Positions 13,902-48,611 of a DNA stretch of 64,000 nucleotides are shown piece after piece. Every line of letters begins with the position of its first letter. The stretch's first letter is position 1. The position numbers and the translations under genes are program-made. The DNA comes from Siphonodentalium dalli (Eukaryota; Mollusca; Scaphopoda; Gadilida; Siphonodentaliidae): NCBI GenBank assembly GCA_032622095.1, contig CP136066.1:91161319-91225318 (forward strand). The letters run 5' to 3'. Under the pieces are notes generated by a model that was not told the origin of the DNA, did no database searches, and was given only the letters and a program-made list of their open reading frames with translations.

Positions 13902-13960
13902 CCGCACACACTCGACAAGGGATGTTGGCTATATGCACCTCCCCAATCTATCCTCACCCA
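13902..13960 (-). pseudogene. Truncated copy of exon C (copy C4)
   Basis: The minus strand reads IANIPCRVC in an open frame, then diverges at the position of Gly223. The segment upstream of the match (CAATCTATCCTCACCC on plus) is shared with copies C1 and C2. It is the copy furthest from true exon C. Confidence 0.65.
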
Positions 13961-13987
13961 AAGATGATTAAAAATGAGAGCCACATG

Positions 13988-14200
13988 CAGTAATGCCCTA
14001 AATAATCGACTCCTTAACCACAGCAGAATTATGGGTAATTTTTCAGGATTTAGTCGGAAATATGGCTTGTTGCCATTCACCGGAAAGCTCTCAGTGAGAG
14101 CTTTCCGATGAATAGCAACAAGCCATATTTCCGAATAAATCCTGAAAAATTACACATAATTCTGCTGTGGTTAAGGAGTCGATTATTTAGGGCATTACTG
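13988..14200. mobile_element. Mariner-like MITE, copy 3
   Basis: CAGTAATGCCCTAAATAATC to TAGGGCATTACTG, 213 bp. The right flank is TA and the left flank is TG, probably a mutated TA. The insertion lies at the donor of exon-C relic C3. Confidence 0.85.
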
Positions 14201-14203
14201 TAC

Positions 14204-14290
14204 CTTACAACCTTCACATGTTAATGGTAGCCAGAAAGGGCGCTCCACACACTCATCATCAAAGGATTTTGGCTACACTGCATCCACACC
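14204..14290 (-). pseudogene. Decayed copy of exon C (copy C3), donor interrupted by a MITE
   Basis: The minus strand retains VCGAP, GYH and the P-box stretch ACATGTGAAGGTTGTAAG with a following GTA. A nine-base loss removes the FGA part and TGA codons replace the first Cys-Arg region. The mariner-like MITE at 13988-14200 was inserted at the TA of the GTA donor, so the second base of the 5' splice site is also part of the MITE target site. Confidence 0.72.
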
Positions 14291-14310
14291 CCAGATAGGG
14301 TTATAAATTA

Positions 14311-14332
14311 TAGCATGTCCTTTACAACCTTC
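14311..14332 (-). pseudogene. Short P-box fragment of another exon C copy
   Basis: About 20 bp match only the end of exon C on the minus strand (CACATGAAGGTTGTAAAG). The preceding plus-strand GGGTTATAAAT-type spacer is shared with copies C1 and C2, so this is the remnant of a further unit, cut by a TTAA-type MITE fragment that starts near 14337. Confidence 0.55.
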
Positions 14333-14336
14333 ATGT

Positions 14337-14441
14337 GTGTACTCTTTCATGATGGGAGCTGTGCTGGTGCAACATTAAAGATCCTACAGGTGCTATAGTG
14401 CATTCTCTTATATATGCGAGTCTCCCATAGGGTTATAATAT
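14337..14441. repeat. Fragment of a TTAA MITE
   Basis: CTCTTTCATGATGGGAGCTG and GTGCATTCTCTTATATATGC match the interior of the piggyBac-like MITEs. The ends are not preserved. Confidence 0.5.
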
Positions 14442-14455
14442 ATGAAAGCACGATT

Positions 14456-14551
14456 CTTACAACCTTCATAAGGCTCCAAATTGTAGCCAGACAAGGGAGC
14501 TCCACACACTCGACAAGGGATATTTGCTACAACCCATCTCCACAATCTAAC
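14456..14551 (-). pseudogene. Decayed copy of exon C (copy C2), frame still open
   Basis: The minus strand encodes [15 protein letters not shown] followed by an altered region and EGCK. Deletions of 1 and 5 bases before the P-box together keep the frame, but remove the third Cys of finger I. The position after AAG is AATCGT, so the donor is lost. The copy shares its upstream segment (around 14540-14580) more closely with copy C1 than with exon C, which suggests that the relics duplicated among themselves. Confidence 0.72.
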
Positions 14552-14596
14552 CCCCCCCCACCCACCTGGAGAGGGTTATAAATGAAAGCATGTACT

Positions 14597-14691
14597 TTAC
14601 AACCTTCATGTGTTAAGGCTCCGAGCCAGATGATGACGCTCCACACACTCAACAAGGGATGTTGGCTACACCACATCTCCACAATCTATCC
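14597..14691 (-). pseudogene. Decayed copy of exon C (copy C1)
   Basis: The minus strand reads as exon C in order: ATAGCCAACATCCC-like start, CRVC region, a Gly-Ala-Ser-rich stretch, then GAAGGTTGTAAA followed by GTACAT, so a donor-like GT remains. The Arg codon of CRVC is TGA and the YHF region carries a deletion plus a small insertion before the P-box, so it cannot replace exon C. It is separated from true exon C by a hairpin-ended repeat at 14711-15421. Removing that repeat, the spacing to exon C is about 127 bp. Confidence 0.75.
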
Positions 14692-14710
14692 CCCAACCCC
14701 AAACAGATTT

Positions 14711-15314
14711 AACGAGAGGCCGATCACGATCGGCAGATGTTTAACCCATACCTTGGCGATAGCGACTAGCCATAACTGATAATTTGTCAGATATTGATAT
14801 CATTATATTACATGAAACTATTGCAATAAAATCTTCATATTTTCAAAACAGGATATCACACCTAATTAATCGTATAAAACTAAAATAAATGAAAGTGTCA
14901 AATTTTTTTTATTATTTAATTTTTTTTTTATTGTTATTAAAGTTCAAACAAAATTTAATATTTGTATATGCTAAATTTAGCAAGGAGCTAAATCTAAAAA
15001 AAATTGATTTTTTTTTTCTTTTCCTTTTTCTCGAAAAAGGGTCATAACTCCTTTAAAATTAATCGGATCAAACCCATATTCGGACTCGATCTGTATTTTG
15101 GGCTGTGAAAAAATGTTTGAGTTATGGCAGAATGCGTGAATTCTAAGTCGAAAAAGGGCCATAACTCTGTAACAAAAACTCGGATCAAACCCAAATTCGA
15201 ACTCGATCTGTATTTTGGGCTGAGAAACCCATATACAATTTGGTTTCGATCGGATAGAAAATGTTTGAGTTATCGCATTACTCGTAAAGTGTCTACGGAC
15301 AGACAGACAGACGG

Positions 15315-15352
<38 letters not shown>

Positions 15353-15421
15353 GAACGACGAGTGGTCAATCCGGGCAACGACACTATGTTTACCATACTA
15401 TGGTATGGGTAAACATAAAAA
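14711..15421 (+). mobile_element. Hairpin-ended ACGG-type element (family A, Helentron/pearl-like)
   Basis: The element starts AACGAGAGGCCGATCACG, where GCCGATCACGATCGGC is a perfect small hairpin. It ends with (GACA/GACG)n, GACGAGTGGTCAATCCGG, and a terminal hairpin GTTTACCATAC...GTATGGGTAAAC plus ATAAAAA. Copies at 32349-33829 and 54316-55525 share both ends with different middles. It lies about 14 bp from the exon C donor. Confidence 0.7.
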
Positions 15422-15434
15422 TGAAAACACATAC

Positions 15435-15547
15435 CTTACAACCTTCACATGTTAAGGCTCCAAAATGATAGCCAGACGAGGGTGCTCCACACACTCTACA
15501 AGGGATGTTGGCTATCCCAGCTTCCTTCATAGTCTTCTGACCTGAAC
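15435..15547 (-). CDS. 2DBD-NR exon C: linker and finger I of DBD2
   Basis: The exon is 113 nt. With the one base from exon B it gives 38 codons, residues 203-240. The acceptor is ATTATTACAG|GTTCAG. A second AG six bases further in would also keep the frame, so a two-residue NAGNAG-like choice is possible. About 14 linker residues precede CRVC (C219, C222) and CEGC (C236, C239). The donor is TGTAAG|GTATGT, phase 0, giving a CEGCKG P-box with exon D. This P-box is the common type for AGGTCA half-sites. Only about 24 residues separate the last Cys of DBD1 from the first of DBD2. A hairpin-ended repeat begins about 14 bp into the next intron, and decayed copies of this exon lie beyond it. Confidence 0.92.
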
Positions 15548-19368: not shown

Positions 19369-19419
19369 CTGAAAAAGAATTGTAGAAAATAAACATTAAA
19401 GACGAGCACAAGCCTTGAA

Positions 19420-22501: not shown

Positions 22502-22783
22502 GATTAATCCTTTTATGATGGGAGCTGTGCTGCTGCAGCATCACAGATCCTGTGCCAGTGCATTCTCTTATATATGTCAGTCTCCCATAGCGAGCATCGC
22601 ATATATAAGAGGGCTGCACTGGCTTACAAGGTCAAGGTAAATAATGTTAGGCCAATGCATTCCCTTATATACATGTATGTGAGGCGACGTATGAGAGACT
22701 CGCATATATACTGGTAAGAGAATGCATTGGCACAGGGTTTTCGCAAAATTTCAGGAAGCTCCAGGCATAGAAGGGTTTATAAT
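22502..22783. repeat. Diverged TTAA MITE
   Basis: TTAATCCTTTTATGATGGG to ATAGAAGGGTTTATAA, with the usual three ATTCTCTTATATATG palindromes. The end motifs are mutated. Confidence 0.6.
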
Positions 22784-23227
22784 AACCCTTACTTGACTGG
22801 AGCTACCTGAAATTTTGCTCTCGCAACCGTATGCACTCGCAATTTTAATTCACGGGTGCTAAAATTCGCACTCGTCCCTCTTCAAAATGTTCATGGTCAC
22901 AGTAATAGTTTGAACGTGTATTGACCACGACACACAATCCGTGTCCTGACCAAAATTGAACACACCTTGGAAATGATTGTAACAATCGGATTGTGCTCTA
23001 ATGGATGAAAATGTACAAATGTACATGGAATATAATATAAGTATTGGTACAAGTAGTACATGAAGACCAATCTACAAAATGCAAAATCAATGACTCGAAC
23101 AAAGAATAAACACACACAGCCAAGACTAATCGAAGGAGTCAGGAAGGCAATGGGATGTTCTTTGACATTTCACCAATGATATTGATAAGCAGAACACCTC
23201 GAGAAATCCTCTGCAAATTCAAACATA

Positions 23228-23440
23228 CAGTAATGCCCTAAATAATCGACTCCTTAACCACAGCAGAATTATGGGTAATTTATCAGGATTTAGTCGGAAA
23301 TATGGCTTGCTGTCATTCATCAGAAAGCTCTCGATGAGAGCTTTCCGATGAATAGCAACAAGCCATATTTCCAACTAAATTCTGAAAAATTTCCCATAAT
23401 TCTGCTGTGGTTAAAGGATCATATACTTCGGGCATTACTG
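23228..23440. mobile_element. Mariner-like MITE, copy 5
   Basis: CAGTAATGCCCTAAATAATC to GGGCATTACTG, 213 bp, flanked by TA on both sides. The right arm is more diverged than the left. Confidence 0.85.
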
Positions 23441-23489
23441 TATGTAGGGTGATAACAGACTGAATGGTTTAATTCTCCATTAGTACCAA

Positions 23490-35690: not shown

Positions 35691-35857
35691 TTAACCCGTT
35701 CATGACTGCAGCTTCCTGAAATTTTTCGAAAACCCTGTGCCAATGCATTCTCTTATATATATGAGGCACCCTATGGGAGATGCACATATATAAGAGAATG
35801 CACTGGCACAGGGTCTTTAAAGCTGCACCAGCACATCTCCCGTCATGAAAGGGTTAA
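35691..35857. mobile_element. piggyBac-like TTAA MITE
   Basis: TTAACCCGTTCATGACTGC to CGTCATGAAAGGGTTAA, with one ATTCTCTTATATAT palindrome. Confidence 0.8.
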
Positions 35858-37577: not shown

Positions 37578-38049
37578 TGTTCAGAGGCAATGTTTACCAA
37601 CCAAATGTGATTGTTATGTTTACTATATTAAGTACTATGTTAATTGAAATAGGAATATTGTGCAATGCAAGAGTAGGCAAATTGAATGAACCATTAGTGG
37701 AAATAGAAAAACTCAATTTCGCATTTACTAATTTAAGATGAATCCTACGGTATGTAACATTGGAATTTAGTATAAACAGGAAAGACTTGAGTAATGTTAG
37801 CCCTTCAAAAACTATATACTGCTTGAGTAGTTTATTTACTATATTCACATTCATTTTAACCCTTGCATCAATGAAAGGATTCTTCTGTTATGGTAGAAAT
37901 GTACATAATATCTAGTCTTTAAGAAAGTTATAGATACAAAAGCTACAGAAAGATCCACAGTTCGAAGTAATTATATGACATATATATAGTTGCGAATTTA
38001 TCATGAAAATATTGTTTTTTTTGTTATTTCTTTTGTGATTTTCCTATTA

Positions 38050-38262
38050 CAGTAATGCCGTAAGTAATCGACTCCTTAACCAGAGCAGAATTATGGGTAA
38101 CTCTTCAGGATTTGGTCGGAAATATGGCTTGTTGCCATTCATCGGAAAGCTCTCACTGAGAGCGTTCCGATGAATGGCAACAAGCCATATTTCCAACTAA
38201 ATCCTGAAAAGTTACCCATAATTCTGCTCTGGTTAAGGAGTCGATTACTTAGGGCATTACTG
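38050..38262. mobile_element. Mariner-like MITE, copy 10, with an empty-site paralogue
   Basis: CAGTAATGCCGTAAGTAATC to TTAGGGCATTACTG, 213 bp, flanked by TA. The surrounding sequence is repeated at 41701-42016 without the MITE: CCTATTACATTATG there, against CCTATTA and TACATTATG here. This proves a TA target duplication. Confidence 0.92.
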
Positions 38263-46874: not shown

Positions 46875-47078
46875 CAGTAATGCCCTAAATAATCGACTCC
46901 TTAACTACAGTAGAATAATGGGTAACTTTTCAGGATTTAGTCGGAAATATGGCTTGTTGCCATTCATCGGAAAGCTCTCATTCCAATGAATGGCAACAAG
47001 CCATTTTTCCGACTAAATTTTGCAAAGTTACCCATAATTCTGCTGTGGTTAAGGAGTCGATTATTTAGGGCATTACTG
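46875..47078. mobile_element. Mariner-like MITE, copy 13
   Basis: CAGTAATGCCCTAAATAATC to TTAGGGCATTACTG, flanked by TA. The arms are nearly complete. Confidence 0.88.
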
Positions 47079-47457
47079 TACCACAATGTGATTCAGGAAT
47101 ACCATTTCCGATGGTGGTATGAATCTGGTTATTAAACAGCGGGTATGATTCCCGAATTTGCCACTTGAAAAGTGAAAATGACCCTAATCCTGCGTACCAA
47201 AGGAGTGAGGGGGATACCCTTTAACACAATACTTAAACATGAATGTATTCCAATATAATTGCATTCGCCTGAAGTACATTTTTTAGTCTATGTAATAGTA
47301 TGTATACAGGGTTCCCACATTCAGGGACAAACCTGCAGGGCCACTTGGCAGACACTTGAGACATCTTCTCCCTAAAATGTGCCACTTCTCTCTATTTTTG
47401 TCCCAGGGACTGGCAGGGAGTAGTGAATTCTCTCTCATATACCAGTACATGTATATA

Positions 47458-47721: not shown

Positions 47722-47991
47722 TTAACCCTTTCATGATGGGGCCTGCACTGGTGCAGCATTAAAGATCCTGTGCCAGTGCATTATCTTATATATGCAAGTC
47801 TCCCATAGGGCCGGAGCCTCGCATATATAAGAGAATGCACTGACTTACAAGGTCAAGATAAATATTGTAAGGCCAATGTATTCTCTTAAATATGCGAGGC
47901 TCCCTATGATGGGAGACTCGCATATATAAGAGAATGTATTGGCACAGGGTTTTCACAAAATTTCAGGAAGCTCCAGTCACGAAAGGTTTAA
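47722..47991. mobile_element. piggyBac-like TTAA MITE
   Basis: TTAACCCTTTCATGATGGG to CACGAAAGGTTTAA, with three ATTCTCTTATATATGC-type palindromes. Confidence 0.78.
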
Positions 47992-48437: not shown

Positions 48438-48611
48438 TTAAGCCTTCCATGAGCCTCGCATATATGAGAAAATATATTGGCCTAACAATATTTACATTGA
48501 CCTTGTAAGCCAGTGCATTCTCTTATATGGGAGACTCGCATATATAAGAGAAGGCACTGGCACATGGTCTTTGATGCTGCACCAATGCAGCTCCCATCAT
48601 GAAAGAGTTAA
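48438..48611. mobile_element. TTAA MITE, diverged
   Basis: TTAAGCCTTCCATGAGCC to ATCATGAAAGAGTTAA, with two ATATATAAGAGAA palindromes. Confidence 0.65.

Follow-up and report, generated by a model that had tools for sequence, protein, structure and literature searches.

Intronic minisatellites consist of short tandem units within an intron, multiplied by slippage or unequal exchange. Tandem duplication of exons is frequent among animals, with a 2002 study cited for about 10% of animal genes (PMC9013439). According to the accessible sections of two further sources, clusters of mutually exclusive exons (MXE) arise by duplication of an exon together with part of the adjacent intron (PMC6071210), and dmrt1 of Solea senegalensis carries a partial intragenic duplication (PMC7605655). 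The accessible sections of the 2DBD-NR literature (PMC10497141, PMC1810520, PMC6844482) make no mention of exon copies in a gene of this kind; the words "exon" and "intron" are absent from the main text of PMC10497141, and the Echinococcus 2DBD-NR is described, in the sections available of PMC6844482, as encoded by ten exons, with an alternative 5' site.

Here we show that the intron 3' of exon C of a 2DBD-NR gene contains five decayed copies of this exon, all on the minus strand like exon C itself. The type of event is known; for this gene, there is no earlier report in the accessible sections of the open-licence literature searched, consistent with the statement in the preliminary description that none was known in 2DBD-NR genes. 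As in the animal tandem exon duplications (PMC9013439), the extra copies lie beside their source and are found by similarity in the adjacent DNA; unlike those duplications, the copies comprise about the last 81 of the 113 nt of the exon, apparently without the acceptor, and all look dead. Inclusion of adjacent intron within the duplicated segment is shared with the MXE clusters, as described in the accessible sections of PMC6071210, but the MXE exons are spliced and coding, whereas the array copies are not open and complete. The dmrt1 case, so far as the available sections of PMC7605655 describe it, is similarly a partial duplication that takes in part of an exon of a transcription-factor gene, but it exceeds 10 kb and a SINE is proposed as its cause, whereas the array is a row of roughly 130-bp units. 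Like intronic minisatellites, the array is made of short tandem units in an intron, but its unit is largely former coding sequence, too decayed for Tandem Repeats Finder (the array is absent from its list at a minimum score of 30).

The window, that is, the whole 64-kb stretch of DNA analysed, carries exons A, B, C and D of the host gene on the minus strand, in that order. The core of exon A (26058-25993; 5' end not fixed), located by motif scan, encodes the first zinc finger of DBD1 with the P-box CEACK. Exon B (19368-19200; 3' end not fixed) follows an AG ending at 19369 and encodes the second finger of DBD1, recognized by its translation (KFYMRASKQ...). Exon C (15547-15435), 113 nt long (2 nt plus 37 codons), encodes the first zinc finger of DBD2 and the P-box CEGCK/G, between the acceptor ...attattacag and the donor GTATGT. 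Exon D (536-380; 3' end not fixed), located by motif scan and translation (GFFRRMVKE...), follows an AG ending at 537 and encodes the second finger of DBD2; it adjoins the left window edge, and later exons, among them any for a ligand-binding domain, would lie beyond the window. With the joins deduced from splice sites, exons A+B and C+D match zf-C4 (Pfam) at 3.5e-21 and 7.7e-28, respectively. The P-boxes are CEACK + KFYM (EACKK) and CEGCK + GFFRR (EGCKG), the pair that defines 2DBD-NRA in the accessible sections of PMC10497141; judged by its two zf-C4 DBDs and this pair, the predicted product is that of a 2DBD-NRA-type nuclear receptor gene. Exon C joined to exon D matches 88 distinct PDB sequences (60 listed), the best among those listed being NR1D1 (3e-24). 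Searches for relatives of DBD2 in bacterial/archaeal and viral collections gave 50 and 12 pattern matches, respectively, none of which was confirmed, an outcome to be expected of an animal gene.

A blastn search of the whole window with exon C plus 5 nt of intron (15547-15430) recovered four copies on the minus strand: copy 1 at 14668-14593 (81%, E 3e-18), copy 2 at 14529-14456 (85%, E 2e-20), copy 4 at 14275-14201 (76%, E 3e-12) and copy 5 at 13932-13905 (96% over 28 nt, E 7e-8). Copy 5 also matches copy 1 (86% over 50 nt, blastn), and copy 3 matches copy 1 over 45 bp at 91% (E 4e-13, blastn), running into the spacer. All further exon C matches in the 64-kb window had E 0.82 or worse, one of them falling within copy 3. 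In the same window, exons A and D as blastn queries at E 0.01 returned self-matches only, and exon B gave one extra match (E 0.010); by this measure, exon C is the only one of the four exons with such copies in the window. The decayed, same-orientation copies downstream of exon C that had been proposed in the preliminary description are borne out by the four matches at E 2e-20 to 7e-8, and the coordinates given there were good.

Blastn, alignment and reading frames place copy 1 at 14669-14596 (exon part, followed by spacer) and copy 4 at 14276-14204, both on the minus strand like all the copies, and blastn and translation place copy 2 at 14530-14456 (75 nt, open in the receptor frame). Copy 3 (14338-14294), previously described as a P-box scrap at 14311-14332, is indeed a copy but more than a scrap, namely, the 3' part of a unit with the P-box codons, GG in place of GT, and spacer. 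Copy 5 (13985-13905) comprises spacer and the first 28 nt of the exon-derived part and is then truncated; its matches to other units end at 13959, and the remainder, up to the MITE described below, was assigned by position. The 12-mer TGAAGGTTGTAA, which covers P-box codons (e.g. 14468-14457), is identical in the alignment in exon C and all four copies that reach it. With the insert and the MITE taken out, the unit spacings are 134 (exon C to copy 1), 139 (copies 1 to 2), 117 (copies 3 to 4) and 129 (copies 4 to 5), and the spacing from copy 2 to copy 3 is 135 with its dispersed repeat left in. Tree building with exon C and copies 1-4 (copy 5, being too short, was omitted) supported only the pairing of copies 1 and 3 (ultrafast bootstrap 94); the node with copy 4 has a value of 38.

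Once the mobile repeats are removed, the repeated unit consists of about exon C nt 33-113 and 44-65 nt of intron-derived spacer, so that adjacent units in the same orientation share both exon and intron parts. The copies are exon-derived, as the preliminary description had it, but they are not copies of the whole exon, beginning instead at about nt 33. The spacers of four copies yielded no counterpart of exon C nt 1-28 (P 0.16-0.58 under permissive and 0.09-1.0 under strict scoring), and none was found in these spacers when the 5' flank of exon C was added to nt 1-28 (P 0.09-0.51 and 0.06-0.94, respectively); nt 29-32 are too few to test for presence. The spacers do match each other: of the six pairs, five have permissive P values of 0.0005, 0.0005, 0.0005, 0.0015 and 0.0065 (0.0005-0.02 under strict scoring), and the pair of copies 1 and 4 has 0.28 (strict, 0.57). 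When decay of a copied nt 1-28 was simulated, a score as low as that observed was reached in none of 1000 runs each at 14, 22 and 30% divergence and in 5 of 1000 at 40%; the score of the exon segment next to it is 458, compared with 137. The intron of exon C itself matches the copies over only about 13 nt, after which the insert begins. Because nt 1-28 are undetectable in the copies, the acceptor of exon C was probably never copied into the array. Most simply, the content of the unit suggests a duplicated segment that started within exon C and reached into the intron, and so did not take the acceptor along.

Three mobile repeats interrupt the array. Thirteen nt after exon C, the first unit is split by an insert (about 15421-14710) that is matched elsewhere in the window, e.g. 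at 55525-55084 (82%) and 54365-54315 (96%). This insert, like its relative at 55525-55084, is a composite repeat; it contains a tract of the tetranucleotide GTCT (15298-15352) and, internally, two direct copies of an 80-bp sequence (15227-15148 and 15110-15031, 86%). The 5' part of copy 3 has given way to a dispersed repeat (about 14432-14341); stretches of 76-93 nt of it are matched at 81-84% by seven other places in the window, and an eighth place matches at 73%. This element, which has a CATATATAAGAG-type palindromic core, also lies at 47725-47810, 35768-35854, 48526-48608 and 22510-22590. Directly after the GT of copy 4 lies a palindromic MITE of about 214 bp (about 14202-13988; inverted self-match of 95.8%), all or part of which is matched by about 18 other places in the window, at up to 93% over the full length. 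Full copies and fragments of the MITE occur, e.g. at 38048-38262, 23226-23442, 46875-47079 and 779-954. The insert and the MITE had both been recognized in the preliminary description, with limits (14711-15421 and 13988-14200) that are corrected here. At E 0.01, the three repeats gave 31, 40 and 45 blastn matches, self-matches and both palindrome arms counted.

Each copy carries lesions. Copy 1 has a 7-nt deletion, an in-frame TGA and an altered third Cys codon, and retains AAA/GT. Copy 2 has an open frame, preserved by its deletions taken together, but has lost the third zinc-ligand Cys, and its donor GT is changed to AA; its 25-residue translation had no Pfam match at 0.001, a result that is uninformative for want of a control search with exon C by itself. 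Copy 3 is a fragment with GG where GT is expected. Copy 4 has a 3-nt insertion, TGA TGA TGA in frame, and 1-nt and 10-nt deletions, and retains AAG/GT; copy 5 has 28 nt of exon sequence and is then cut off. Thus, GT is present in two of the four copies that reach the donor position, copies 1 and 4, and copy 2 is the one with an open frame, just as had been read from the sequence at the outset, but the frame, the four cysteines and GT occur together in none. Neither do the copies show the acceptor and donor expected of an MXE, exon nt 1-28 and the native acceptor being undetectable, or an open frame with a complete zinc finger, given the stops in copies 1 and 4, the missing third Cys in copy 2 and the fragmentary state of copies 3 and 5. 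On this evidence, no copy looks usable as an exon now.

In three coding columns, exon C differs from all copies in which the column is present (4, 3 and 2 copies), and all three differences are synonymous given the inferred ancestral base (P 0.013-0.023), as would be expected of exon C as a source under constraint. Variation among the copies themselves is also seen in two of the three columns; it includes a stop (T) in copies 1 and 4, which we read as later decay. Copy-specific coding changes, counted by hand from the alignment (n=20), include 12 nonsynonymous ones against 14-15 expected (P 0.07-0.18), and 11 of the 20 fall on third codon positions (P 0.038); without two doubtful columns of copy 3, the hand count is 18, of which 10 are nonsynonymous and 10 in third positions. 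Compared with each other, in pairs that are non-independent, the copies differ in 50 of 344 cells of the exon part and 20 of 69 of the intron part; in the longest single pair, copies 1 and 2, the counts are 12 of 69 and 5 of 18 (P 0.33). Against exon C, 34 of 268 exon cells and 16 of 44 intron cells differ; for fixed differences, 3 of 18 intron columns compared with 3 of 81 exon columns is not significant (P 0.07); the final five of the intron columns may belong to the insert. The slower change of the exon part and the third-position excess could reflect past constraint, conversion by exon C, or the choice of alignable stretches. These weak signs of constraint slightly lower our confidence in a minisatellite origin and give a little more weight to former use as alternative exons, that of copy 2 included. 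The distances among copies 1, 2 and 4 are 0.13-0.20. With an assumed substitution rate of 2-4e-9 per site per year, a hand estimate would put the age of the array, very roughly, at 17-55 million years.

We consider it quite probable that the array is a decayed, exon-derived intronic minisatellite, the units of which were born unspliceable and most likely only lengthen the intron. A segment starting near nt 33 of exon C and extending some 44-65 nt into the intron would have been duplicated in tandem several times, and we infer slippage or unequal exchange as the process that produced about five extra units 3' of exon C. This segment would have left behind the acceptor and the first 32 or so nt of the exon, so that the new copies would not have been born as spliceable exons. 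They would then have decayed, while the three mobile repeats inserted into, or replaced, parts of the array, which today most likely has no effect beyond a longer intron. The proposal in the preliminary description that the expansion was local and without function from the start fits better than that of alternative exons, with nt 1-28 undetectable and stops in both copies that keep GT.

That the copies are defunct alternative (mutually exclusive) P-box exons, once served by acceptors of spacer origin, appears unlikely. Such use would agree with the GT kept in copies 1 and 4, with the third-position excess (11 of 20) and with the slower change of the exon part compared with the intron part, but the share of synonymous changes is non-significant (P 0.07-0.18), one of the three testable copies being in frame is about chance, and no copy is complete, with stops in copies 1 and 4, GT missing from copies 2 and 3, and copy 5 cut off. 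The earlier suggestion that the copies could once have offered alternative P-box exons is not supported, given the lack of detectable exon nt 1-28 in them, despite its detectability in the simulations, together with the in-frame stops of copies 1 and 4. A candidate cryptic acceptor within a spacer lies on the minus strand before copy 2 (14585-14566), a pyrimidine-rich AG, ataaccctctccag/GTGGG, with 14 pyrimidines among 18 positions, a level reached by 1.6% of the 3017 AGs on that strand. From the AG at 14566 the frame is open, and an exon at 14565-14456 would be 110 nt long (2 nt plus 36 codons), in the phase of exon C, but would lack the donor GT. The acceptor of exon C itself has 11 pyrimidines among 18, equalled by the AGs before copy 4 (14364) and copy 5 (13953), so that pyrimidine content is no argument against cryptic acceptors before these copies. 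It seems very unlikely that copy 2 was once a real alternative exon of 110 nt, using the spacer acceptor at 14566 and a donor since lost, and coding for a variant of the first zinc finger in which the P-box was the same; if it was, exonisation of a minisatellite unit would have supplied the receptor temporarily with a second DBD2 finger.

Two other explanations take the unit to be either mobile or functional at present. The region is rich in mobile repeats, and the unit could be a dispersed genomic repeat that carried a captured exon C fragment and inserted here, but the copies stand in tandem beside their source and on the same strand, and exon C has no significant match elsewhere in the 64 kb, whereas the local repeats have dozens; this supports the original view of the copies as a local tandem array, with no dispersed copies within the window, and the captured-fragment explanation appears highly improbable. 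A present regulatory role, e.g. as decoy 5' splice sites or pairing elements for splicing of exon C, would draw on the two GT sites that follow an exon C-like 3' end, but the mobile repeats disrupt the array, and change in its intron-derived part has been no slower than in the exon part, so that we give such a role scarcely any credence.

The finding is real but modest: a decayed, exon-derived tandem array in an intron, which most likely has no function now and had none earlier. The array is a clear fossil of exon sequence multiplying inside an intron, and it illustrates why a tandem copy of an exon need not be a candidate for an alternative exon: the position of the duplication breakpoint decides, and here the breakpoint apparently fell inside exon C, so that the acceptor was left behind. 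Should younger versions exist in related species, it could be followed in the array whether such copies ever gain splice sites.
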